From Cylindrotheca closterium (taxonomy: Eukaryota > Bacillariophyta > Bacillariophyceae > Bacillariales > Bacillariaceae): DNA of 64,000 bases. Both the position numbers and the translations under genes were made by a program. The notes under the pieces are model-generated. The model did not search any database. It was not told the DNA's origin and saw only the letters and a list, made by a program, of their open reading frames with translations. This document shows positions 14,304 to 62,142 of the stretch, in pieces (position 1 is the stretch's first letter; each line of letters opens with the position of its first letter). The stretch is from positions 1-64,000 of the forward strand of contig CAKOGP040001725.1 of NCBI GenBank assembly GCA_933822405.4, written 5' to 3'.

Positions 14304-14895
14304 TTTAGCAGTATACTAGTTCCGATCATCCTTGTTGGTATTGTTGCTCGTCCTTCTTTACTACTATCCAAAAAACCGATTCATTCATTCGCCTTGCAAG
14401 AGCAGGACTTGTGAGGATATAGTTCAGTGAGGCAGGAGTAGGTATATTATTGCGACAGTTGAAATGTACCGGTACACAGCGTTATATGGGATGTCAGATG
14501 ATGACATGAATAAAATAATGCAAAAGATGTGACGACGATGATGATGCACATATAATATGCACTATACTCTAGTTCTTGGACAAAGTCACTCCTTCGTCTG
14601 ACGAGGCTATCCTTTATTTCAACGGGCGCGCAAGCCGCACGATGAATGTTCGCATTTGGTGGGTGAAGACGATGGAAACAATGCTAACACTAGAGCTCCT
14701 ACTGCGTCGCATCACAGGCAACGCAACAAGGATAGTCTGACACTTTGAGACTGTTACGTCCAAAGCACATAAAATCAAAACTGAATTGGCGAGACAACAG
14801 CAACAAGAATACCCACCAAATATCCATTCATCGCCATAAAACGCTAGAGTACGAAAAAAACATTAAGAATATACTCAGAATCAGTTTTCAGGAAA
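14304..14895. other. Spacer between pseudogene and prolyl-hydroxylase gene
   Basis: Contains 'tgtaccggtacac' at about 14467-14479 and the 'actccttcgtctgacg' segment near 14590 shared with the upstream region of the parent membrane-protein gene. The right half should carry the promoter and 5' UTR of the plus-strand gene at 14896. No coding sequence. Confidence 0.45.
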
Positions 14896-16974
14896 ATGTT
14901 AAGGTTGCGAGCATGCTGCAGACTTTCCGCCACCACCACCATCATTTGGCTCTTCACGATGATGATTATCCAATTGCCATTCGCACCAACATCGTTAGCG
15001 TATCGAGAAAAGGATGAGGAGATTCCAGACTGGGACCTGACGGCCAAACTGTGGGAATTGGTGGACCAAATGGATTTTTTGAATCAAGAGCACCCACCCT
15101 CCATTCCGTTTTCGGAACGAACCAAAAAGGGATCTTTTGGATTTTACTTCCCAAGCCTTGAAGCGCAAAACTGTCAGGCAGACGGCGATAAAGGACAATG
15201 CCCTAGTACGGATAGTAGTGATGATGAGGACGATGAGGAAGAAGAAGAATGCGTCGACAAACACGAACTCTGTGAAAAGCTTGCCCAACTGGGGGAATGT
15301 CTTTATGTCGAGTCGGATGACTGTCCAAAGTCTTGTTTGACCTGCAAAAATCCCCCAGCAGATGATGATTCGGCTACAACTTATTCCATTGGACGAAAAC
15401 AAACCATGTCGAAGGATTTCCTCAGTGGTGTACGAGAAGATATTGAGGAGGTCAAGGAAGAGTGGGAAAGCTTTTCCGGCGATTTGAGCGTCTTGAATCT
15501 GGAAATGCCTGTGGAAACGGATGAAGAATTGGTGGAGGCGGTCGCCAAACAAATTATTGGAACCCAAGAGTACATGGCTAATGTTGTAATGGTCGATCCT
15601 GAATACGAAGATGTTCGAAGGTCCTGTCAAAATTATCTCGGCCATTGTGAGATATATGCTGCCATTGGATATTGCGAAAATAATTTCATGGGAGGGGAAG
15701 ACTTTTTGATGATGCGACAGAAATGTGCACCCGCTTGTCGAGCCTGCGATGATTATGAATTACTCCAACCCTGTCTGGCCAATTTTGATCACAATTTCTA
15801 TCACGAAGGAGAATTAGATACTTTGTTTCGGAGGATGGTGGGGGAATTGGACATTTCCAAATCGGACTTGCCATACAAACCATCCATTCATGCTCGACCT
15901 GGTGGACAGTCAAAGGCAGACTATTTGGCGGAAAACGGGACTATTTCCTCGAATGAGCCAGTGGATGGAGCCTGGCTGGTAACTCTGGAAGATTTCTTGA
16001 CACCGGAAGAATGTGATCGCTTCATCGAATTGGGAGCACTCGAAGGATATTCACGTTCGGGATTGCAAGAGGGAGAGGACAAAAAAAAACATCGAACCTC
16101 GGTCAACGCTTGGTGTTCGGCAAAACATTGTGACAAGGACCCAATTGCCCAAAGTGTTGTCCAACGAATCAGTGAGACTACTGGAATGCCATCAGGATAT
16201 TCGGAACCCTTGCAGCTCTTAAAGTATACCGAAGGACAATACTACAAAATGCATCACGATGTGGACTTGCCACTAGAAACGTCCTGGCCTCAAGGGCCAA
16301 GAGTTCTCACATTCTTCCTTTACTTGAACGAAGTGGAAGAGGGCGGAGCTACTCGAATGGTAGACATTACTCACAAAAACGACGCATATGCTCCAGGGGA
16401 TCTCTTAGACGAATGTGTCAAGGAAGCCAACACCACGGCAGCCAAAGCAGCCTGTGCCTTGATTGAAATGGATATCAAACCCAAACGAGGCATGGCCTTG
16501 GTTTGGCCAAACGTAAACGATAATGATATGATGCAGAAGGAATCTGGTACTTGGCATGAAGCTTTGCCAGTCATTAAAGGGGTCAAATATGGTGCCAATG
16601 CTTGGTTCCGGCTGCGGAGATTTGACCGTGAATGCGATACCAAGGCGTATGAAACATGGTTGGAGAGTCACAACATGACCTATACCAGCGACGATGACGA
16701 CGACGACGACGATGAAGCTGTGCTATCCATGGAAACCCTACACGGAGGCGCAAACTCCACCACAACGGTCCAGTCGAAGAAAGAGAAAATGGAGCAAGGG
16801 GATGCTACCACCATCACCACGACCACGACAACTGTGAGCACGACGCCGACAACTGTGACGACTACAACCACGAAAGTAATCACGACGACTACAGTGACGC
16901 CAGTTGCGGAATTAGAGAATGACAGTAGTGACGATAGCGAGGATGATGAATGGGTAGACGGTTCCGTCAGTTAA
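14896..16974 (+). CDS. Prolyl 4-hydroxylase-type 2OG-Fe(II) dioxygenase with two ShKT modules
   Basis: 692 aa, single exon. Residues 12-35 form a hydrophobic signal or signal-anchor, so the enzyme should enter the secretory pathway. An acidic run (about 108-118) precedes a Cys-rich ShKT module at 119-150 (ends SCLTC); a second ShKT lies at 244-284 (CQNYLGHC...CAPACRAC). The catalytic P4H domain is at about 359-575. It contains HHD (453-455, giving H453 and D455 as iron ligands), a distal His in TWHEALP (H554), and K564 placed to bind 2-oxoglutarate before WFRLRR. The family hydroxylates prolines of secreted proteins using O2, 2-oxoglutarate, Fe(II) and ascorbate. ShKT plus P4H fusions are known in protists and plants, usually with one ShKT after the catalytic domain; here two precede it. 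The C-terminal tail is Asp- and Thr-rich, perhaps a glycosylated or cell-surface tether. Confidence 0.9.
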   Translation: MLRLRACCRLSATTTIIWLFTMMIIQLPFAPTSLAYREKDEEIPDWDLTAKLWELVDQMDFLNQEHPPSIPFSERTKKGSFGFYFPSLEAQNCQADGDKGQCPSTDSSDDEDDEEEEECVDKHELCEKLAQLGECLYVESDDCPKSCLTCKNPPADDDSATTYSIGRKQTMSKDFLSGVREDIEEVKEEWESFSGDLSVLNLEMPVETDEELVEAVAKQIIGTQEYMANVVMVDPEYEDVRRSCQNYLGHCEIYAAIGYCENNFMGGEDFLMMRQKCAPACRACDDYELLQPCLANFDHNFYHEGELDTLFRRMVGELDISKSDLPYKPSIHARPGGQSKADYLAENGTISSNEPVDGAWLVTLEDFLTPEECDRFIELGALEGYSRSGLQEGEDKKKHRTSVNAWCSAKHCDKDPIAQSVVQRISETTGMPSGYSEPLQLLKYTEGQYYKMHHDVDLPLETSWPQGPRVLTFFLYLNEVEEGGATRMVDITHKNDAYAPGDLLDECVKEANTTAAKAACALIEMDIKPKRGMALVWPNVNDNDMMQKESGTWHEALPVIKGVKYGANAWFRLRRFDRECDTKAYETWLESHNMTYTSDDDDDDDDEAVLSMETLHGGANSTTTVQSKKEKMEQGDATTITTTTTTVSTTPTTVTTTTTKVITTTTVTPVAELENDSSDDSEDDEWVDGSVS

Positions 16975-17777
16975 TCGTAGTAATGACGCTCCTCTCTATT
17001 GTTAGAGAGTTCCAAAGTGAGAATCAGTTTGCTTCTTTTTTCGAAACAATTTATCACCTTCACCAGATTGCGGCTTCTCGTTTCTTGTTGAATGACAAAT
17101 GACTTCTTCCCGTTTCTTTATTTGGGCTGGTAGTCGTCCAATAAATGAACACTGGACTGCTCAAAATAGTTCAATTTGTGCACTCATCTGATCAAGTTAC
17201 AACTGCTGTACCTGATCGCACGTTTTCTATTGTTCTCACAGCTTTCTCTTGAAGTTTTAAAAAAAATTATCCCAGAATCAATGTCCTACTGTATTCAGTT
17301 CTAGTAGCACTTTGCGGTACTGTCCAGCCAGCGACCAAAAGATTATCCTTCTGCTAAACATCAATACCATTTTATTTCCCGGAGGAGCTTTATGCCAGTG
17401 TTCATCGGGCCTTCTGTTTCTCTACACTATGGGTCATTCATGTTGCGGCTTTGTGGGGGAGCTTTATGCCACTGTTCACTGTTGGTTGTATTTTGAAATT
17501 ATTTCAATTCACTTTAGTCGATTGACGTGGCGGTTTTGACCGGGAGCTTTATGCCATTGTTCACCGCAGTTCTGCATGGCTTCTGGATCTCGATATAAAT
17601 ACGCCCAAAGGACTAGTCCAAGTGTTCTTTGGTCAGTATATATTCAAAAGAACAGCACTTGCGACGGCAAATCGCTGACGCGGAACAAATCTGACAAGGC
17701 TCAAAAACAGGAATGACTTGGTGTTATTCCCTGAGAAGAAATGGGAACACAAAAATCAAAACCAAGAAAAAGAAACA
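16975..17777. promoter_or_regulatory. Upstream region of the TPR gene with a three-fold repeated motif
   Basis: The motif GGAGCTTTATGCCAnTGTTCA occurs three times in the same orientation, at about 17384, 17457 and 17543 (spacing 73 and about 86 bp). The last copy is about 235 bp before the chosen ATG. The intervening bases are not conserved, which favours a binding site or UTR element over a simple tandem duplication. The 5' part (16975-17300) holds the 3' end of the prolyl-hydroxylase gene and otherwise AT-rich sequence. Confidence 0.45.
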
Positions 17778-19919
17778 ATGAACGCCAATTTCTCGATTGA
17801 GTGCACCAACCACCAAATGGTTGAGCACATCCAAATATACGATGCTCTCAGCAAAGCATCACCAAATACTCAGAGATCAATGGTCGATAGAATATCTACA
17901 TTCAACGAAATGGGGGCTTCCGAATTTCACTCAGGTCACTTTGAGACATCAGAAATGTGTTTCTGTCAAGCTGTCTCCGAACTTGGGATTGGTTCTAGTC
18001 TTGCTTCGAAAGGTCTGCGTTCTTCGCCCCAAAACGGCGATGTAACCATGATGGATTCCCGAGACGATGGGTTAGTCGTGAACCCCAGTCGGTATGATGA
18101 AGGCATGAACGTATACAATACTCCATTGAACCTGCTACGTGACTGTGGTGATGGCAAAGAACAAGACGGCTTTCAGCACATCACCGCAGCGGTTGTCGCC
18201 TACAATATGGCACAAGTCAAGATCAAATGCGGAAAGAGGAATCATGCTGAGCACTGGTTGCATCAAGCACTCTATTGGACCAAGGCAAACGATCATTTTT
18301 CCCAGACATTGGTTGTCAAGATTCTCCACTGCCTCGGATTTTGCAGATATGTCACTGGTGAGGCCGACATGGGAATGGAGTATTATCAGAAAGCATTTAA
18401 TACAAGCAAATACTTCAAACTTGGTAGGCAATACCTTGCAGCCAGCCTGAACTGCATCGGGGTCCTTCAATTCAGCATGGATGGTACATGCAACGTCGAC
18501 AAGTCACTCCAATCCTTTGAAGAATGTCTACAGATGTACCGATCGTGCAAAAGCTTTGATCCCTTGGCAGTCGCAACAGTTCACAATAATATTGGAAGAC
18601 TGCATTACCTCCGAGCTGACTACGTCCAGGCCCTTCAGAGCTACCAAGAATCGCTCAAGATTCGGAGGCACCTCCTTGGTGAAGAATCCATTGATGTGGC
18701 TGCTACCTTGTACAATGCAGGTCAAGCCTGTCAGCAACTCAAAAAGTTCGAAGAATCGATCAATCATTACAAGTCATTTCTCAGCGTTGCCAAGTCCGTC
18801 TTCGGTGAGAACTCGAAGGATGCCGCTCTGGCGCTGAAAGGAATTGCCGAGATTCATCAAGTACAAGGGAAGTTCGATACGGCTTTAGAATTCTTTCATC
18901 AAGCTTTGCAAGCTCAGACGGCGGCAAGTGGGAGACTTAGCACGGATGTTGCCACACTTTTGAACAAGATTGGCAATCTTTGCTACGAAATGAAGGAATA
19001 CGACACCGCCATGGCATCTTACACAGAAGGGCTCGAGATCGAATGTTCCATCCTTCCACCAGACCACCCCTACACAATTATTACACAGACAAATATTGCT
19101 CACATTCACAAGCAGTTGGATCAATGTGAGAAAGCTCTGGAAGCTTACGAACGAGTATTGAAGATGCAAGTGGGAGCCTTTGGAAGCAATGCCTTGGTTT
19201 TGGCGGAGACACTCTCCTTCATCGCCTTGATGCAATATCACTTGGGTGACTACGCGTCGTCCCTCGAAGCATATCAATTTGCTCTTCGAATCTACCGAGA
19301 GCACTCGTCCAACAACGATAACCCAAGAATTGCCTCCACGTTGAATTCCATTGGACTGGTATTCTTCAAGAAGCAAGCCTACGAACTGGCCAACATGTGT
19401 TTTTCGGAAAGTCTGAGGATACGAACCAAACTTCTTGGCCCCAATCATCGAGATGTGGCGATTCTGTGGTATAATCTTGCCACTGTATATTTCGAGCGAG
19501 GGGAAGAAGAGACAGCCGTCAAGATGTATAAGGAAACCTTGCGAGTGGAGGAGATGCACCTTGGAGCGGACCACCCCGATGTTGGCCTTACGCTGAGGCA
19601 TTTGGGACAGGTTCACCAACAGCTTGGCAAGCTTGAGGAAGCTGCCAAGTATTTCCAACAAGTTGTTGCTATTGAACGAAAAAGAGAGGTGGCGCCAAAT
19701 ACAAGAAGTTCCTTGTCCAAGGCATTGAATCTCCTCGGCAACGTGTACCTGCAGTTGAATCAAGTTCCAGAAATGATGGAGTGCTACGTGGAAGCTTCAC
19801 GACTAAACGAAGCTCCTCGAGAAACTAGTGATGATACAACATCTGATCGATTGGTCATTGCTGGATACAATTTGTACTGCCTGCAAAAAACAAATCCACC
19901 CGCTGCACCAATCGCTTAG
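17778..19919 (+). CDS. TPR-repeat protein, kinesin-light-chain-like
   Basis: 713 aa from the ATG at 17778; the frame is open 60 bases further upstream but without an ATG. After a variable N-terminal 120 residues the protein is essentially a string of about 12 tetratricopeptide repeats. They are of the 42-residue kinesin-light-chain/FGGY kind, with repeated patterns such as ALQSYQESLKIRRHLLGEES, ALEAYERVLKMQVGAFG and AVKMYKETLRVEEMHLGADH. Such arrays act as protein-protein scaffolds; they are very numerous in diatom genomes. No N-terminal coiled coil typical of true kinesin light chains is seen, so a motor-adaptor role should not be assumed. No enzyme domain or targeting signal is present. The ending NPPAAPIA is short and unstructured. 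Confidence 0.88.
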   Translation: MNANFSIECTNHQMVEHIQIYDALSKASPNTQRSMVDRISTFNEMGASEFHSGHFETSEMCFCQAVSELGIGSSLASKGLRSSPQNGDVTMMDSRDDGLVVNPSRYDEGMNVYNTPLNLLRDCGDGKEQDGFQHITAAVVAYNMAQVKIKCGKRNHAEHWLHQALYWTKANDHFSQTLVVKILHCLGFCRYVTGEADMGMEYYQKAFNTSKYFKLGRQYLAASLNCIGVLQFSMDGTCNVDKSLQSFEECLQMYRSCKSFDPLAVATVHNNIGRLHYLRADYVQALQSYQESLKIRRHLLGEESIDVAATLYNAGQACQQLKKFEESINHYKSFLSVAKSVFGENSKDAALALKGIAEIHQVQGKFDTALEFFHQALQAQTAASGRLSTDVATLLNKIGNLCYEMKEYDTAMASYTEGLEIECSILPPDHPYTIITQTNIAHIHKQLDQCEKALEAYERVLKMQVGAFGSNALVLAETLSFIALMQYHLGDYASSLEAYQFALRIYREHSSNNDNPRIASTLNSIGLVFFKKQAYELANMCFSESLRIRTKLLGPNHRDVAILWYNLATVYFERGEEETAVKMYKETLRVEEMHLGADHPDVGLTLRHLGQVHQQLGKLEEAAKYFQQVVAIERKREVAPNTRSSLSKALNLLGNVYLQLNQVPEMMECYVEASRLNEAPRETSDDTTSDRLVIAGYNLYCLQKTNPPAAPIA

Positions 19920-29785: not shown

Positions 29786-30897
29786 CTATGTTTGCCGCAA
29801 TCGTGGGATTCGTTCCACCAGGGAATGGAAATCCAACCATCGACCCGGAGTTCCAGGAGCAGGGCCCTTCGTATTTTGTGGTGGCAATGACGGTTCTTCT
29901 TCTTTTTCTTCTTCTTCTTCTTCCAACAAGTCATTGATTACATATTGGGCTCGTTCTCGTGCCAAATGTTCCGAGATGGTACTAATCGCGTGGCACTTGC
30001 GGGCCAAGGCTGGATGCGGATAGTTCTTCTTCNNNNNNNNNNTTCTTCTTCTTCTTCTTCCAACAAGTCATTGATTACATATTGGGCTCGTTCTCGTGCC
30101 AAATGTTCCGAGATGGTACTAATCGCGTGGCACTTGCGGGCCAAGGCTGGATGCGGATAGTTCTTCTTCTTCTTCTTCTTGTTGTTGTTGCTGCTGCTGT
30201 TGTTGGAAGAATCACGATTTTGTCGAACCACATGCTCCATCGCTCGACGCCGTTCAAAACGACCATCGTCCCATATCCGCCATTCCAAGCCAATGGTCGT
30301 GGACTGTTCGGCGGGGTCCATCCACCAAGCAGAAGATGCCAAGTCGGCCCGTTTGGGTCGGCCTTCCAACCAAAACAAACGACGGAAATACGTCACGGTA
30401 ACGTTCATATCCAATATCGTGGCCTCTTGCTCTTCGGCCGTAATGAACAAATACTTTTTACGGTCCCTCTTGCTGCTGGGCAGCTCTTCTGGTAAGATGT
30501 GAACAGTATTTTGATCCAATTGAAAACGGATAGACTGCTGTTTGGGAGCATCTTCCATCATCAACGTTGCAGGAGTAAACTTTGGAGTCATACTCGGAAG
30601 AAATGTCTTGCAACATGATTGGAAGAAGACTAAAGGGTGGTGCTGGTGGTGGTGGTGGTGCTGGTGCTTGTGATTAGCAGCATGATCATCACGATGACAA
30701 GGAGGATGCTGTGCCATGATCATTTCGTCTTGTTGTTTGTATGTTATACTATTTTCCGCTACTCGTCTAGTGGTTGCTGTCATTCTGTGATTGTTGCAAG
30801 AAGAAGAAGAAGAAGAAGGAGATGGGACCGCATTGTTAAGATTTTCTGGCTCTGCAAATGCCATGCGACCTTTCTTTTTTGTGTGTGTATCCATCAT
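29786..30897 (-). CDS. RGLE-family protein (member 2), interrupted by an assembly gap
   Basis: Starts at the ATG 30897 (MMDTHTK). Blocks matching member 1: SIRFQLDQNTVHILPEEL, KKYLFITAEEQEATI, TTIGLEWRIWDDGRFERRRA, MEHVVRQN, then HPALARKCHAISTISEHLA and RERAQYVINDLLEEE, ending with a Pro-rich tail and RIPRLRQT. A His-rich tract (HQHHHHHQHH) is in the N-terminal third. The reading frame is broken by 10 N at 30033-30042, and a 109-bp segment coding the last conserved helix is present on both sides of the gap. This is most simply a false duplication; only one copy is expected in the real gene. The total length is therefore uncertain (about 325 aa if one copy is removed). Function unknown. Confidence 0.65.
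29924..30169. other. Scaffold gap flanked by identical 109-bp copies
   Basis: Positions 29924-30032 and 30061-30169 are identical. Between them lie ten N and a TTC run. The shared sequence codes ARKCHAISTISEHLARERAQ and neighbours. Copies this identical, abutting a fixed-length gap at a TTC microsatellite, point to failed merging of two contig ends rather than a biological repeat. Confidence 0.85.
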
Positions 30898-31986: not shown

Positions 31987-34900
31987 ATGCAGTTCTCAGC
32001 CATTGACTTTACGGGAAATGTGTCTTCTGGCAATCTCTTGACCGCCAAAGACAAAACGAGAAGAGCAATAAGCCAAGAAACAGTCAAGGCCGATTTCCAT
32101 CGTCCTTCCATGCATTCCGGTAGTGCATCCACCTATCGGACGGCTTCCTTTTCCAGTGGCGGGAGTGGAAGCAGTGGTAATACTAGCGGTGGCGTGGTGG
32201 TAGGGAATGAAGAATTTCATCGATTGTTAAACGATCGAGATTCCCAATTGAAACGGGAAATGGATCGCCGAGCACGTGATCATCAAGAGGAAATTCGGTT
32301 GCTCAAAGAAGAGATTTCCTTGTTGAGAAATCAAGCACCTGCACCCATCACAGTACCCGCCGATATTGGAATAACAAGGGGAAACACCAAGCATAACAGC
32401 CATCATCATGCTCATAATAGTAATAATGGCCACCATGCAAATGCAGACAATAACAATCAAAGCCGGAGGTCCTTTGATAGTAGTGGTTCCGATGGAATGA
32501 TGAGCTCTGGACCATTGAACGATGTTATTCCAAATAAGCCAGGCTTGTATCGAGGCATATCCGGGGTGACAGAAGCGAGCAACGTGGGTGCTTCGTATCA
32601 TCCGCAGGGGAGGAAAATTCAGTTTGCGGATCATTTGCACCCGGTAATCTATGAACAAAACAATAACAGCCACAACAACAGCGATATGGAAAAGGGTAGT
32701 CTAACGATGAGGTCGAATGATAATGGCGCCGCCGATGATGATGATGATGAAGAAGAAGGTGTGGATTTGAATCTCTTGCCCGAAGACACCTTTAGTTATT
32801 TGGCATTCTCCAAGTGGCGTTCCACATCCATGTTTACTGCCCTTGCGGTGGTGGCCATCCAAGTCACTACTCTGTCGGTGTTGGCCTTGGACTTTGCATC
32901 CATTAAATACCCTGGCAATCGATTAGGAGTACCCGTCAGTGTGAATTCGCGAACGGCTACGATCCAAGTCATTGCGCTCTTTATCATTGTGATCAGTCAG
33001 GGCGATTTGCAGGATTCCCTAAACCTGTTGTTCATGGGGTACGACAAGGAAGAACTGGAAAAGAACTTGAATGCTAAAGTGACGTACCGGCGATGGTTGA
33101 TATCACTCTGTACACGGCTATTGGTTACTATTTTGGGTTTGTGCATCACATTTGTCATGATTGTGCGAGAGTCCGATGTGACTCAGCTACTTTTGGACTT
33201 TACATCGATTGAGTTCGTTACAAACATTGACAATATCTTCTTTTGGTTGACTGCATGGTACGAATGAATTATTGAGAGAAGAATGAATGCCTCACTAATG
33301 TGATTTTGTGGTGATTGTGCTAACATTGTTCTTCTTCTTCGTTCTAACTTAATATTATTGGACTATTGGATTATTTTGTAGGGGCTACCTTGGATTGAGT
33401 GCCCAACGTGACGCCACGGCTGTGATTCAAGCCAAGGCCCCCGTATTGGTGCAAGAAGAAGTGGAGGACGGCAAGAAGCCCTCTGCCGAAGCACCAGTCC
33501 GAGACTCGGTAGAGTTGAAACGAGTAACACGCAACCGACAACGTAAACGCATCAAGCAGTTGCATGTGAAGAAAAAGTCCAAAAAGATGATAAACCCCCA
33601 TGCGGCACTGGAAGGAGGGTTGGACCTGGAAACAGATCGAGATTTTGACATCCATTCCATCCACTCCTTTGCAACCTTTGCGTCGATGCGCGAAGAACTC
33701 AAGTTTGGAGAAGAACACCGCTGCATGTGCTACAGTCGTTTTCCTCGATTCGCGTTCCTAGCTGCCATTTACGTGACCATGCTGTCTGGATGGGCCATAA
33801 ATTATTATTGGCAGCGAACGGGCACCTTTGTTTGCGATACAGTCTTCGTGCAATTTAATGACATTTATCATCCTGGATTAGCCACCTTCAGTGGCCTCTT
33901 TGAAAAGAAATGTGGAGAAAACGGCTACTGCAAACGTGCGGCCTATGTGGAAGTTGGACATGGCAACTATTCTTCTACTGCTTCGTTCATCTTTTGCGAT
34001 GCGCTTTCGACGTGGGTCTTTGCGTTTGATGAAGGGGGTCGATTCAACTGTCAAAACTGGCTGATTCAATCGCCAAATCAAAACATTCTTTCGGAAGCTT
34101 CGTATAACATTTTGGAATCTGTCAAGGGTAACGAGCCGTGGACGATCAAATTGGGAGATAGAAGAGAATTGCCAATGCCGGAGTTCACCCTTACGTGTTA
34201 TGATTGCATGTACGATGATAGCTTCTGTGGCAGAGGAACTTGTGTGGTACGTATCATTATTTGGCATTACTACTGTGTATAGACAAATTGTACCTTACCT
34301 CGATTCTTTACAACAGAATAACCGATGCATTTGCGACGAGGGCTGGTATGGTTACCGCTGTGATTACTTCATGCCTTGCGGCGCCCTTGAGGTCAACCCC
34401 CTGCATAATCTTGGAGGATCCCGAACTTGGGCAGGTCAATACAAGCTACTAATGGCACCCGTCGAAGGAAATGAAACTGATGCGCCGCCCAAACTCCTAA
34501 CGAAGTACAATCGACCTACCTACATCGGCGGTGGTATCAAAAATGGCGTTGCAGTGCCTGTAGAAATCATTTTTTACAATGGAAGGCGGTGGGTCAATGT
34601 TGTACGAGACGCTCTTGTCACTGAAGAACAGGTACAGCATTTCTTGGTCGACTCGCATGGCTATTGGTCCGATTACAGAGTATCCTTCATCACTGGAGCT
34701 ATCGACATCAACACACCCGAAGATTCCACAGATCCGTCCCGAATTGATTGGCTTGAAGCGAACCCTCCCGAGACCGATCGTGGAAGAGTTCAAGGACCGA
34801 ATCTGCAAAACAACCAAATCGATCTGAGACTTCTCTGTTCCAGCTGTAACAACGAAACAAACCCTTGTTTCTACGGCGGCACCTGCATGGCTGGAGGTAA

Positions 34901-37264
34901 TTGCGTTTGCGAACAAGGAGAAAAAGACAAGGCGGGTACTCTGTGCCAGATCCCTCCAAGTGGCAATGGATTTTGCGATGTCACTTTCAACACTCCTCAG
35001 TTCAATTTTGATGGCGGCGACTGTGTAAGTGGTTTGCTTGAGCTATTTTCGTAATGAAAACTGGTTAATCTCTCATCTTCAGTTTGTTGGTCGACCTACA
35101 GTGTGAAGGGACGTGCGCGAGTACAGTCGAAAACGAGTGTGGAGTTGTTGAGCGAAGTACCAGTTTGGGCAACACGCTTGCTTACATTGGATTCCCAAAT
35201 TGTACTGATCCAGATGCAGTCAAGCAAATCTCGGGATCTCAAACACTATTCAATATCATGGAACGAGGGCAAGTTATCTGCGGAACATACAAGTCTGATT
35301 TCATGTCTGATTTCTTTGCAGCGCAGGTAAGTCAATTCTTCTCAATGTGGAAACCTATGCGGCTGAATAAACTTCTCACAACTAATTTGTGCTACAGTGT
35401 CAAGCAGTTGCGGCAGCAGTTCTTGGTGACAAAGATGCGTATTCCATCGATCTATGGGGTAGTGCAGTTGGGATAAACCGATTCCTTGCTATTAACGATG
35501 GAAAATACGACATCATCTTTGGCTCTGACTTTCTTGCGAATCGTGATGTTTATGAGGTACAGAAACAGACGATGCTAAGCACTGAATGTGGGTCATATGT
35601 ATTACATTGCGTTTCTAACAAACTGGTGGCATGACAATATTTCACAGAAAAAATCGAAATCGCCCTTTTCATACGCCGCCATGCCTTACTATTTTGCAGG
35701 TTTGACTTTTGCTGGCATTCCTCGATTTGTCGAATGTGCTGATAGCTATGATTTCATCTCTCCGGCATGTCAAGGTGTCAAGATTTGCGTCAGCCAACTG
35801 ACCTCTTGGTACGACGTGGTGGCAAACATTTTTCCTCCAGAAAACATCGTTGGAACAGAAGGTATTGCCTCATCAGTGCCCGCTCTCGGGAATGGACTCT
35901 GCAACGTGTTTGGAGCAACAAGATTTGAAGTTCTGGAAGAAAATGTTGTGCGCCTGGGATATGACTTGAGTGTCGGATTTGCTGTTGGCGAGCGCATGCA
36001 CTCGAAGAGTTTCGAGACGTGGATGACTCGATCGGCCGATCGGCAATGGACGAAAATGACTTCGTGGATCTTTGAAGCACTGGTTCAGGCTGAGGAATCC
36101 GGAATCACACAAGCAAGTGCAAGTATTATGGAGTCAACGATTGTATTCAATGATCCAAAATACAGCTTTGACGATATGTTTCGAAATGCCGTGGCGGCAA
36201 ATGGCAATTTTGGTGAGCTGTGGGACAAATCCATGCCCTTCTCCAGGCCTGCAATGAACACTGTATGCGACGGAACTAGTGGCCTGATTGTGGCGATGGA
36301 TTTCGGTGCATTTGGAGACCTCGGTGACCGACCAAGCCAAGGAGGACAGATCGAGCGAATCATTCAACGGGGTGCTTTGGTATGCTCCGTTTCCCCTGCA
36401 ACTGGCTTTGCCGAATTCAATGAACAAACAAACAGTTGGACAGGACTGGAGGTAGATATTTGCCGAGCGATTGCTGCCGCCATTTTCAACGGTCAGCCGA
36501 AGGTTGATTTCGTTACTGGGACTACTAGTGAGGTCTTTACTGCAGTGAAGGGCGGCAATATTGATCTTGCCGCCGGCAAGACTCGTACATTGGAACGAGA
36601 GATCAAACACTCCAGTAGTGGAGGCTTCGCATTCGACTTTTCACCACCATACTTTTATGACGGGATGATCTTTGCTGGTTACGAGCCATTTGGCCGATGT
36701 GCCGCAAACCTGATTTTCGATGGAACCTGTGAAGATACTCTCATTTGTGTTTCTGAAATCACAACGTGGTATGATGCACTTGTTGCACTTGGAGTCCCCG
36801 ACAAGAATATCCTTATGACCGAGTCGAACGCGGAAGGACTTCAGAAGCACCTGGCGAGCGAGTGCAACGCGTTGGTATACGAATCCAACAAGTTGAATCG
36901 AACATTGATGGAAATGGATGAGTATTTTGTCGGAACAAAAAGATACACTAAAGAACCCCTTAGTATGATGCATCGGTCTGATGATCAGCAGTTCTCAGAT
37001 TTGATTCGATGGATCATTTATGGCTTGTTCAATGCTGAAGAGAGAGGAATCACTTCCGAAACATCCATTCGGATGCCCACCACAAACTTGTTTGGAAGCG
37101 AGCTCACTGGAATGTGGCAGAACTCCGTTCGAGAAAGCGGAAGCTATGGCGATATATTTTCTCGCAACTTGGATGGACTCGTCGCTCGTGAGGGTTTGAA
37201 CTTGCTAAACAGGTTGGATGGACCTCAGCTTTGTGCCTCTCCTGGGACAGCCCCCTTCTTGTGA
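31987..37264 (+). CDS. Putative surface receptor: coiled coil, 5 TM, EGF, Notch-type LNR, two SBP domains
   Basis: Six exons: 31987-33257, 33382-34246, 34317-35024, 35102-35326, 35398-35556 and 35648-37264, all with GT-AG introns of 70-124 bp, giving 1614 aa. Residues 1-270 are disordered with a charged coiled coil (about 76-117). Membrane helices lie at about 279-303, 324-338, 371-393, 411-429 and 547-567. An odd number puts the C-terminal thousand residues outside the cell if the N-terminus is cytoplasmic. Outside are an EGF-like module spanning the exon 2/3 junction (CGRGTC, then CICDEGWYGYRC) and an LNR completed by splicing exon 3 to 4 (FNFDGGDCC). Two solute-binding-protein family 3 lobes pairs follow. 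SBP1 (about 995-1295) has ERGQVICGTY and FEALVQAEESGITQA. SBP2 (about 1308-1605) has QRGALVCSVSPATGFAEF, GLEVDICRAIAAAIF and IYGLFNAEERGIT. SBP1 and SBP2 resemble bacterial general amino-acid-binding proteins (AapJ type). No cytoplasmic kinase or channel pore was recognised. Role inferred: amino-acid or other ligand sensing at the surface. Confidence 0.88.
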
Positions 37265-60222: not shown

Positions 60223-60891
60223 GGTGATGTTTTGCAGATGGCTGTTTTGATGTGACTGTTCTGCAAGTTGTGATTTTTGGCTGTCAAGAAGCAAGCGAAA
60301 AGGTGATGGGCAATCATGGATTTCCAAAGAATAGGAGAAAGCTCTTCTTAGCGCAGGCTATTTAGTGTACGAGGTGAAAAAGCACTTTGCCTTAAGTCTA
60401 CTTCAACTCATTGACAAATCTGGTCAGAGTGCGAAAGCTCACATTGCAAACTTTCCTTTGTCAGCGCCATCAAACGACTCGTAATACAGCGTACAGAAGT
60501 GAAGGAGCCTTTGCCACTGATGGTGAGCTTTATCATCAGAGAATTGAATGCAATAAATCAAAGGTGGGATCTTTTCTTCCGTAACTGATACGCGCGGCCC
60601 CGCGTTTCGATTTACCCCGCCGGTCATGATTTTCGAAAATTCCTTTCAGCTCCGAGCGAATCAATCATCTTGAAACTTTTGAAACTTTTTCATGCTCCCG
60701 CTGCTAGCCGAGAGCGTAGCGGAGGATAGGGGAAGACACGGCCAGCTGCCAACTGCCGCGTGCGTACGCGACATGCGAATTCAATGAATCATCAGCGTCA
60801 CCACCCTATCCAAAAATAATGTCACAATATTCTTTCTCGAGACGAAGACGGCCACTTGTATTCGCTTCCCTTGTAAAGTCCGATCTTCTCT
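60223..60891. other. Divergent promoter, no gene
   Basis: The left part is upstream of the RGLE gene, the right upstream of the PhyH gene. GC content rises near 60710-60780 (gctagccgagagcgtagcgg). No repeat or regulatory motif could be named. Confidence 0.4.
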
Positions 60892-62142
60892 ATGCGCAGC
60901 CATCTAAGTTTCAACATCACCATGTCACATGCTTTGCAAGCCTTCTATTTTGTCTTTGCTTTAGGTAGCACAGCGATAGACGCCTTTACACCTTCGCCGT
61001 GTGTTTCGGCAACAACAACGAGAAGAACTTCAACCAAAAGACACATCCAGAATGAATTTGCCTCCTCGACCTCATTGCTTTCTTCCGCGAGTGAGCTCTT
61101 ATATCAAGACCAACAAGAAGCCATGCTTCGTCGAGCTCTTCATGAAGAGGAACTTTTATCTCAGAAAAGTATGCCCAAGGAACTGCAAGCCGCCACGATC
61201 AAAGCAAAACCCCCCAAGTCGGGAACTGGATTTGCCGACAAGGGAGCCATGGACCCTTCCACGAGACAGGCTGCCGAGCAAGCAAAGATTATGAAACGAG
61301 ATGGAGTGTTGCGAATAAATAATGTCTTGTCGCCAGATGTCTGTGACAAACTCAGACAGTACATGCTGGATCAGCAAACACTTGTCGAAAGCGAAACCGC
61401 AAGCAACCCACAAGCATCAAAGATATACTATGGTGTTGAACAAACACGAAAGAACCGAGCTGATATGCACTTGACTCTGACGAAGGGAGGAGTAAAGCTG
61501 ACAGATGGTAACAGTGATGACGAAAGTACGGCGGACGATGAAAATGTATTGGCGGAAGCTTTGCAAGAACTCTTGTCGTCGGATGGAACGTTGAGGCCAA
61601 TCTACGAAGCCTTGGTGTCTAAGGAAGGAGAATTCTATGAATTGGCCGGCATCATTACAAAACCGGGCAGCTATCGACAAATGGTTCATCCCGATTTGCC
61701 ATTCCAAGACAATGCTCCGCTGTACGTGATTTTCTTGGCACTTCAAGACGTCACTGAAGAAATGGGCCCAACTTCCTTTTTGCTCAAATCACATGTCAAA
61801 AAAGCAATCGAAATATTTGACGGCGGTGATATGGACGCCAAGGACGATCAACTTCGTAAGGCAGACTGTCGTTTCGCGACTCTGAGCAAGGGTGCCGCCG
61901 TCTTGTTTGACGCTCGCGTACTTCATTGTGGCGGTGCCAATGATATTGATAAGGGAGCAACCCGAGTCATGCTTAACTTTTCATTCCGCAATCCAAAGGT
62001 GCAAGGTGATATTGGATACAAGGGATCCATGATGCCGGGCTATGTTGGTGCCATGACGTTGGGAAATGTCAGCGACGCATTGGATCGATATAACGAAGGA
62101 GAGATAGATCCATTTGCTAGCTATGGTGATGGTACGATATAA
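60892..62142 (+). CDS. PhyH-type 2OG-Fe(II) dioxygenase, probably plastid-targeted
   Basis: 416 aa. The N-terminus has a hydrophobic signal segment (about 15-30, ALQAFYFVFALGSTAIDAF) ending in DAF|TPSP, the Ala-Phe pattern used by diatom plastid proteins, followed by a Ser/Thr/Arg transit-like stretch. ATG at 60922 (M11) may be the true start. A phytanoyl-CoA dioxygenase fold begins with MKRDGVLRINNVLSPDVCDK (about 134-153). Iron ligands: H266 and D268 in MVHPDLPF, and H345 in VLHCGGAN. R358 (TRVMLNFSF) should bind 2-oxoglutarate. The substrate is unknown; the family hydroxylates lipids and small molecules. Single exon. An acidic patch DDESTADDEN lies between the first helix and the core. Confidence 0.85.
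   Translation: MRSHLSFNITMSHALQAFYFVFALGSTAIDAFTPSPCVSATTTRRTSTKRHIQNEFASSTSLLSSASELLYQDQQEAMLRRALHEEELLSQKSMPKELQAATIKAKPPKSGTGFADKGAMDPSTRQAAEQAKIMKRDGVLRINNVLSPDVCDKLRQYMLDQQTLVESETASNPQASKIYYGVEQTRKNRADMHLTLTKGGVKLTDGNSDDESTADDENVLAEALQELLSSDGTLRPIYEALVSKEGEFYELAGIITKPGSYRQMVHPDLPFQDNAPLYVIFLALQDVTEEMGPTSFLLKSHVKKAIEIFDGGDMDAKDDQLRKADCRFATLSKGAAVLFDARVLHCGGANDIDKGATRVMLNFSFRNPKVQGDIGYKGSMMPGYVGAMTLGNVSDALDRYNEGEIDPFASYGDGTI

Follow-up and report, generated by a model that had tools for sequence, protein, structure and literature searches.

Tandem bacterial-type solute-binding domains on a stem shared with leucine-rich repeat proteins: a candidate cell-surface sensor in the diatom Cylindrotheca closterium

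Among the closest described systems are MRP2 and MRM2 of Pseudo-nitzschia multistriata, kinase-less leucine-rich repeat (LRR) membrane proteins for which the available part of the source hypothesises a role in pheromone reception or in adhesion (PMC6261938). LRR receptor-like genes of this species respond to sexual cues, according to the accessible sections of another report (PMC5485032), and in Seminavis both LRR genes and genes annotated as ionotropic glutamate receptors (iGluRs) have expanded through tandem duplication, as stated in the text available (PMC7335047). Here we describe a gene of Cylindrotheca closterium located in a 64,000-nucleotide stretch (contig CAKOGP040001725.1, positions 1 to 64,000; hereafter the window). 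It encodes a protein with two solute-binding protein (SBP) domains of bacterial type; judged by its sequence, these sensors have been swapped onto a chassis that other proteins of the genome also use. To our knowledge, few diatom surface receptors are known, though diatoms respond to pheromones and bacteria.

The gene and its stem family

Splicing of the six exons gave an open reading frame (ORF) of 4845 nt, encoding 1614 amino acids plus a stop with no internal stops, and all five introns (124, 70, 77, 71, and 91 nt) were of the GT-AG type. A nearer AG as acceptor of intron 3 was rejected, with the frame broken and many stops, and the AG ending at 35101, 19 bases beyond the near site, restored the frame to give FDGGDC-C (hyphen at the junction). 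The motif of the Lin-12/Notch repeat (LNR)-like module is thus made whole by splicing, as is the first epidermal growth factor (EGF)-like module (aa 699-727 by Pfam, split by the junction behind aa 712). The recomputed splicing matched P0001, a deposited C. closterium protein (unnamed product) of the same length and with 100% identity over the searched region. The start, end, six exons, and length of a preliminary description made from the sequence alone were thereby reproduced, along with its statement that splicing completes FDGGDCC and the EGF module. P0002, an ORF of 1615 aa from an MMETSP transcript, was 81% identical over the searched residues 560-1614. The alignments with P0002 and P0003 were free of gaps at all five junctions, with a 3-residue gap six residues ahead of the second. 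Because the P0002 transcript ORF spans all junctions, a single transcript encodes the full domain order in a homologue. The order was the same in P0004 (C. closterium, from MMETSP), P0003, and P0005; P0007 has a probable retained intron within SBP1.

Exon 1 gave 26 matches in the genome including its own locus, and the remaining 25 fall within 22 loci (20 stretches plus two shorter ones). These loci were surveyed by tblastn at a threshold of E ≤ 1e-3, the queries being segments of P0001 or of P0010, a protein of the LRR type; the counts are matches within one stretch and no proof of a single gene. The helices were found at 21 loci and the extracellular stem at 18; among these 18, LRRs were found at 13 and SBP domains at one (contig C26, P0005). 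A shuffled query found none. The extracellular stem was matched at L057 with the LRR-type query only and at L049 only at 7e-4, and L042 holds two stem genes. All five downstream ORFs tested matched LRR families of Pfam (best E per ORF ≤ 1.3e-23). Scoring of the 7994 candidates with the most shared words yielded 12 proteins, and P0010 (1413 aa) and P0017 (1371 aa) are complete LRR versions. No Pfam kinase was found in P0001, P0005, P0010, or P0017, despite the label serine/threonine protein kinase given to P0017 by one source; names on the deposited proteins look automatic.

Ten aligned sequences shared 42 invariant columns, from the fourth transmembrane helix (TM4) through the LNR-like module. 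The shared sequence stops near GFPNCxDP, ~10 residues upstream of SBP1, and the LRR ectodomain is not in the present protein; the SBPs stand in its place. EGF-like module 1 is not in the eight LRR-type rows of the alignment (A1), only in its two SBP-type rows. The EGF_2 family scored 18.1 bits against a Pfam cut-off of 22.1, and Notch/LNR scored 17.5 bits against 21.2, the latter in the unspliced ORF only and not in the spliced protein. Since both lie below the cut-off, the assignment of these modules is based on motif and family conservation, and on that basis the EGF and LNR of the preliminary description are retained, together with its view of this part as a stalk.

Three helix paralogues (L045, L049, L053) show, by eye, other Cys-containing repeats that replace the EGF/LNR/LRR part. 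A close copy of the receptor lies on contig C556 (L001, L007), with 57-79% identity in the main matching pieces, broken frames, and no match for aa ~768-1053 in the stretch examined; it is probably a degenerate duplicate.

On the N-terminal side, the model of the homologue P0006 has a single helix at its residues 59-96 (block predicted local distance difference test [pLDDT] scores of 66-76 at 61-90); the coiled coil is predicted from this model. The TM1-TM4 block holds the conserved stretch LLLDFTSIEFVTNIDNIFFWLTAWGYLG. Five membrane helices had been claimed: hydropathy shows TM1 to TM3 clearly, whereas a strong TM5 is seen only in homologues, and TM4 is weak and model-based. The Lys/Arg-rich loop ahead of TM5 contains 24 K/R and 18 D/E, and seven Cys occur in aa 566-700 and none in aa 1-279. 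Given five helices, the basic loop before TM5 and the Cys that follow this helix indicate external SBPs and an internal coiled coil, which agrees with the proposal that the coiled coil lies across the membrane from the SBPs; a surface location is inferred from this topology. As a separate observation, TM4 (window 33196-33394) is strongly conserved although its helix is only weakly hydrophobic; it includes an Asp that never varies (D415 here, among the 42 invariant columns) and may have a function in the membrane.

The solute-binding domains and their origin

Both SBPs are Venus-flytrap domains of family 3, and the nearest relatives are bacterial AapJ-like amino-acid-binding proteins (PDB 4z9n, a protein that we take to be AapJ; the entry title names a glutathione-bound protein of Brucella ovis). 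The similarity to this structure is full-length, the C-terminal extension included. SBP_bac_3 matched SBP2 at 33.5 bits against a Pfam cut-off of 26.4 (36.0 bits for exon 6 alone) and was matched by six of the eight domains of alignment A3. The Pfam scan of the protein gave no match in SBP1, which is homologous to SBP2 (27% identity, 285 columns, E 4e-28). The two bacterial-type SBP domains reported earlier are upheld on these grounds.

To compare the binding pocket, 15 diatom-side SBP domains were aligned with 10 bacterial ones, with P0002, P0003, P0007, and P0009 classed as diatom-side by similarity. The conserved Arg was present in all 25 domains (R1072 in SBP1, R1393 in SBP2). We take the Arg to hold the ligand carboxylate and the acid to hold the ligand amine, as in HisJ/LAO. 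In stem-type SBP2 (6/6), the Ser/Thr position (T or S) and the acid (E) were retained, and identity between the two subfamilies was only 48-49%. In stem-type SBP1 (6/6), the Ser/Thr position was changed to D and the acid to T, S, or Y, and ~14 residues of the first-lobe loop were gone in SBP1 of P0001 and P0005. The SBP1 domains of P0008 and P0009 have T and E at these positions, and SBP2 of P0009 has T and G. With Arg, Ser/Thr, and acid kept in SBP2 and the latter two lost from SBP1, the distal SBP2 looks binding-competent and the proximal SBP1 altered. SBP2 would most likely bind an amino-acid-like compound or a small peptide.

Four Cys were common to all 25 SBP domains, and two additional Cys occurred in 15 of 15 diatom-side and none of 10 bacterial domains. 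In the tree, a branch supported at 100/100 set all 15 diatom-side SBPs apart from the 10 bacterial ones; P0008 SBP2 (incomplete), the SBPs of contig C146 (in pieces), and P0006 (ending in SBP1) were omitted. SBP1 and SBP2 of P0009 grouped with the stem-type SBP1s and SBP2s at weak support (80/85, 80/78), which suggests that the SBP1/SBP2 split preceded fusion to the stem. P0008 (Seminavis robusta) and P0009 have an architecture with tandem SBPs and a single strongly hydrophobic segment. These results suggest one acquisition, then tandem duplication, then deployment in at least three architectures, namely this one, the present stem, and that of a gene on C146. Scans of genome contigs for relatives gave none in the first and two in the second. 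Matches occurred in 176 plasmid records, of which 40 were listed; eight plasmid relatives were chosen for diversity, and an annotated ATP-binding cassette (ABC) permease gene adjoined five of the eight (300-base flanks). Bacterial contamination was rejected in view of the five GT-AG introns and of paralogues in the same assembly. The gene on C146 (L010:3-2514) has tandem SBPs after repeats that by eye are propeller-like and integrin-alpha-like; Pfam gave no match on the 176-aa piece scanned.

Table 1. Features of the gene, with positions in the window
Feature	Position	Strand	Residues (aa)	Content and basis
Exon 1	31987..33257	+	1-423	N-terminus, coiled coil, TM1-TM3, bulk of TM4; splicing and P0001
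Exon 2	33382..34246	+	424-712	End of TM4, basic loop, TM5, extracellular domain 1, first half of EGF1
Exon 3	34317..35024	+	713-948	Second half of EGF1, extracellular domain 2, EGF2, beginning of LNR
Exon 4	35102..35326	+	949-1023	End of LNR, FPNCTDP linker, beginning of SBP1
Exon 5	35398..35556	+	1024-1076	Part of SBP1 with conserved Arg R1072
Exon 6	35648..37264	+	1077-1614 and stop	Remaining SBP1, whole SBP2
Coiled-coil helix	32209..32337	+	75-117	Model of homologue P0006
TM1-TM4 block	32833..33394	+	283-428	TM4 spans intron 1; hydropathy, invariant columns, P0006 model
TM5	33743..33811	+	545-567	Downstream of Lys/Arg-rich loop
Extracellular domain 1	33812..34195	+	568-695	No Pfam match; common to LRR-type paralogues
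EGF-like module 1	34196..34364	+	696-728	Spans intron 2; EGF_2 match below cut-off
Extracellular domain 2	34377..34835	+	733-885	Family motif G-R-R-W or variant
EGF-like module 2	34836..34946	+	886-922	Cys pattern invariant in 10/10 rows
LNR-like module	34953..35122	+	925-955	Spans intron 3; DGGDC invariant in 10/10 rows
SBP1	35240..36304	+	995-1295	Spans introns 4 and 5; degenerate pocket; alignments, model of homologue P0007
SBP2	36341..37234	+	1308-1605	Pocket residues retained
R1393 codon	36596..36598	+	1393	Candidate ligand-carboxylate Arg; R in 25/25 domains
E1488 codon	36881..36883	+	1488	Candidate ligand-amine acid; E in 6/6 stem-type SBP2, D/E in 10/10 bacterial rows

Ten of the 19 listed neighbouring ORFs of the window were scanned. 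ORFs at 14848-16974, 17679-19919, and 60877-62142 encode a 2-oxoglutarate-Fe(II) oxygenase with a ShK domain, a TPR-rich protein, and a phytanoyl-CoA dioxygenase-like protein. Ten N in a row (30033-30042) lie inside a minus-strand ORF and are an assembly gap or a masked stretch.

Proposed function and alternatives

The explanation that we judge probable, with some reserve, is that the protein is a diatom cell-surface sensor that arose by domain exchange. A shared stem, composed of the coiled coil, four membrane helices, a basic loop, a fifth helix, two extracellular domains, and EGF-like and LNR-like modules, often displays LRRs and here displays two AapJ-like Venus-flytrap domains. SBP2, distal to the membrane, would close around its ligand, either an amino acid or a peptide of short length, and SBP1, membrane-proximal, would have turned from a binder into a relay. 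Closure would rearrange the stem and helices, and the cytoplasmic coiled coil would signal it to a partner (kinase, cyclase, or scaffold). We infer ligand sensing by the present protein.

Several points weigh against this explanation. TM4, supported by the P0006 model and by the Lys/Arg-rich loop behind it, has weak hydropathy, and four helices instead of five would put both protein ends on the same side. The N-x-S/T motifs are uninformative on topology, with five of ten before TM1 and five of ten after TM5. The P0006 and P0007 models are of homologues, and their overall confidence is low, with mean pLDDT values of 57.0 and 57.1. No signalling domain was recognised in the N-terminal part. The pocket residues were assigned by alignment, with roles taken from HisJ/LAO. 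Four of the 22 loci gave helices only, and some genes may have the helices without the extracellular stem. Finally, the stem carries LRRs elsewhere, and it could serve for display or for adhesion.

In a different reading, the protein serves adhesion or recognition, and its SBPs have turned into modules that bind proteins or glycans, as the LRRs do in the paralogues, with no small molecule involved. The LRRs found with the stem at 13 of 22 loci and in five of five ORFs by Pfam are as expected from such a role, and so is an SBP1 without acid and pocket loop. By contrast, SBP2 has kept its Arg, Thr/Ser, and acid in all six stem-type sequences despite the divergence between the subfamilies, and we regard adhesion as rather unlikely. 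Nutrient capture, in which amino acids or peptides are concentrated at the surface and passed to a eukaryotic transporter, would be in keeping with the bacterial SBPs, which feed ABC importers, and with the permease genes beside five of eight plasmid relatives. However, the permease family PF00528 gave no match in the genome, while each of 14 control genomes did contain it; the scan was six-frame and intron-blind, and a heavily split gene could escape it. The SBPs are therefore unlikely to be part of such an importer, and the protein was rejected as an ABC importer component. Furthermore, Pfam recognised no transporter domain in the protein, and the stem is common to LRR proteins; capture of this kind appears improbable.

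SBPs share their fold with the part of iGluRs that binds the ligand. An iGluR or its remnant would be consistent with the GluR0 core among the structure matches and with ten matches to the pore family PF00060 elsewhere in the genome (C223, C485, C381, C425, C190:354738-358085; several clustered). In the present protein, by contrast, PF00060 gave no match at E ≤ 1. No 19-residue window of aa 995-1614 exceeded a hydropathy of 1.6 (a window of 1.44 at 1441-1459 lies inside SBP2), and the nearest relatives are AapJ-like and aligned full-length. An iGluR was rejected on these grounds as highly improbable, and the preliminary claim of no pore and no kinase stands. It is scarcely credible that the gene model is an artefact fusing two genes, which the preliminary description would have placed as a split in exon 2. 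Splicing for the present strain is a prediction from sequence, but P0002 carries the whole domain order at nearly the same length, P0003, P0004, and P0005 share it, and the alignments of P0002 and P0003 across the junctions rule out two separate genes.

Beyond the surface sensor proposed here, it is about evenly balanced whether this lineage of pennate diatoms has its own receptor chassis with a role like that of plant receptor-like proteins. Such a chassis would be the five-helix EGF/LNR stem, expanded to ~20 loci in this genome, on which outer sensors are interchanged whole: LRRs, repeats of another kind, or Venus flytraps with a bacterial ancestry. With its SBP branch, the alga would use what was once a bacterial nutrient-binding protein to detect amino acids or peptides in solution, or metabolites of bacteria. 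The stem family provides ~20 candidate surface-receptor loci in one genome, recognisable by their stem. For the SBP member, the predicted ligand class and the named residues make ligand sensing directly testable. If true, this would be a case, other than the glutamate receptors, in which a bacterial nutrient-binding domain has come to serve as the exterior of a membrane protein in a eukaryote.

Comparison with known systems

Notch-type receptors have three LNRs, a heterodimerisation domain, and a single transmembrane segment; the present protein has a single LNR-like module below the cut-off and several helices. A description of the EGF/LNR stem or of its SBP version was not found in the open literature searched, as far as its accessible text extends. 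The preliminary claim that the design resembles no known receptor holds only in part and is unsupported as written: the stem is common to a multi-gene family with LRRs at 13 of 22 loci, the SBPs are AapJ-like, and tandem SBPs occur in Seminavis robusta and in P0009.

AapJ-like proteins (PDB 4z9n) share with the present SBPs the fold, four Cys, the Arg, and the C-terminal extension GNYGEI(F/Y)ERN, whereas the present SBPs are tandem, membrane-anchored, and eukaryotic, have two extra Cys, and lack a detected ABC permease in the genome. BvgS and EvgS, both among the Foldseek matches, likewise use tandem Venus-flytrap domains outside the membrane for sensing; as far as the available part of the source describes them, the present protein differs in having no kinase, more helices, C-terminal SBPs, and an EGF/LNR stem (PMC4352136). 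The tandem did not superpose on those of the BvgS/EvgS type (root mean square deviation >13 Å). iGluRs and diatom class C G-protein-coupled receptors with periplasmic binding protein domains are also eukaryotic receptors with bacterial-type binding domains; from the accessible text on them, the present protein differs in lacking a pore or a recognised seven-helix domain, in SBP subfamily, and in domain order (PMC3727952). MRP2 and MRM2, with a transmembrane region, LRRs, and no recognisable kinase, fit the LRR-type stem paralogues; compared by description in the available text, they carry LRRs where the present protein carries SBPs (PMC6261938). Venus-flytrap sensors on membrane proteins are known; here they stand on a chassis that elsewhere carries LRRs.

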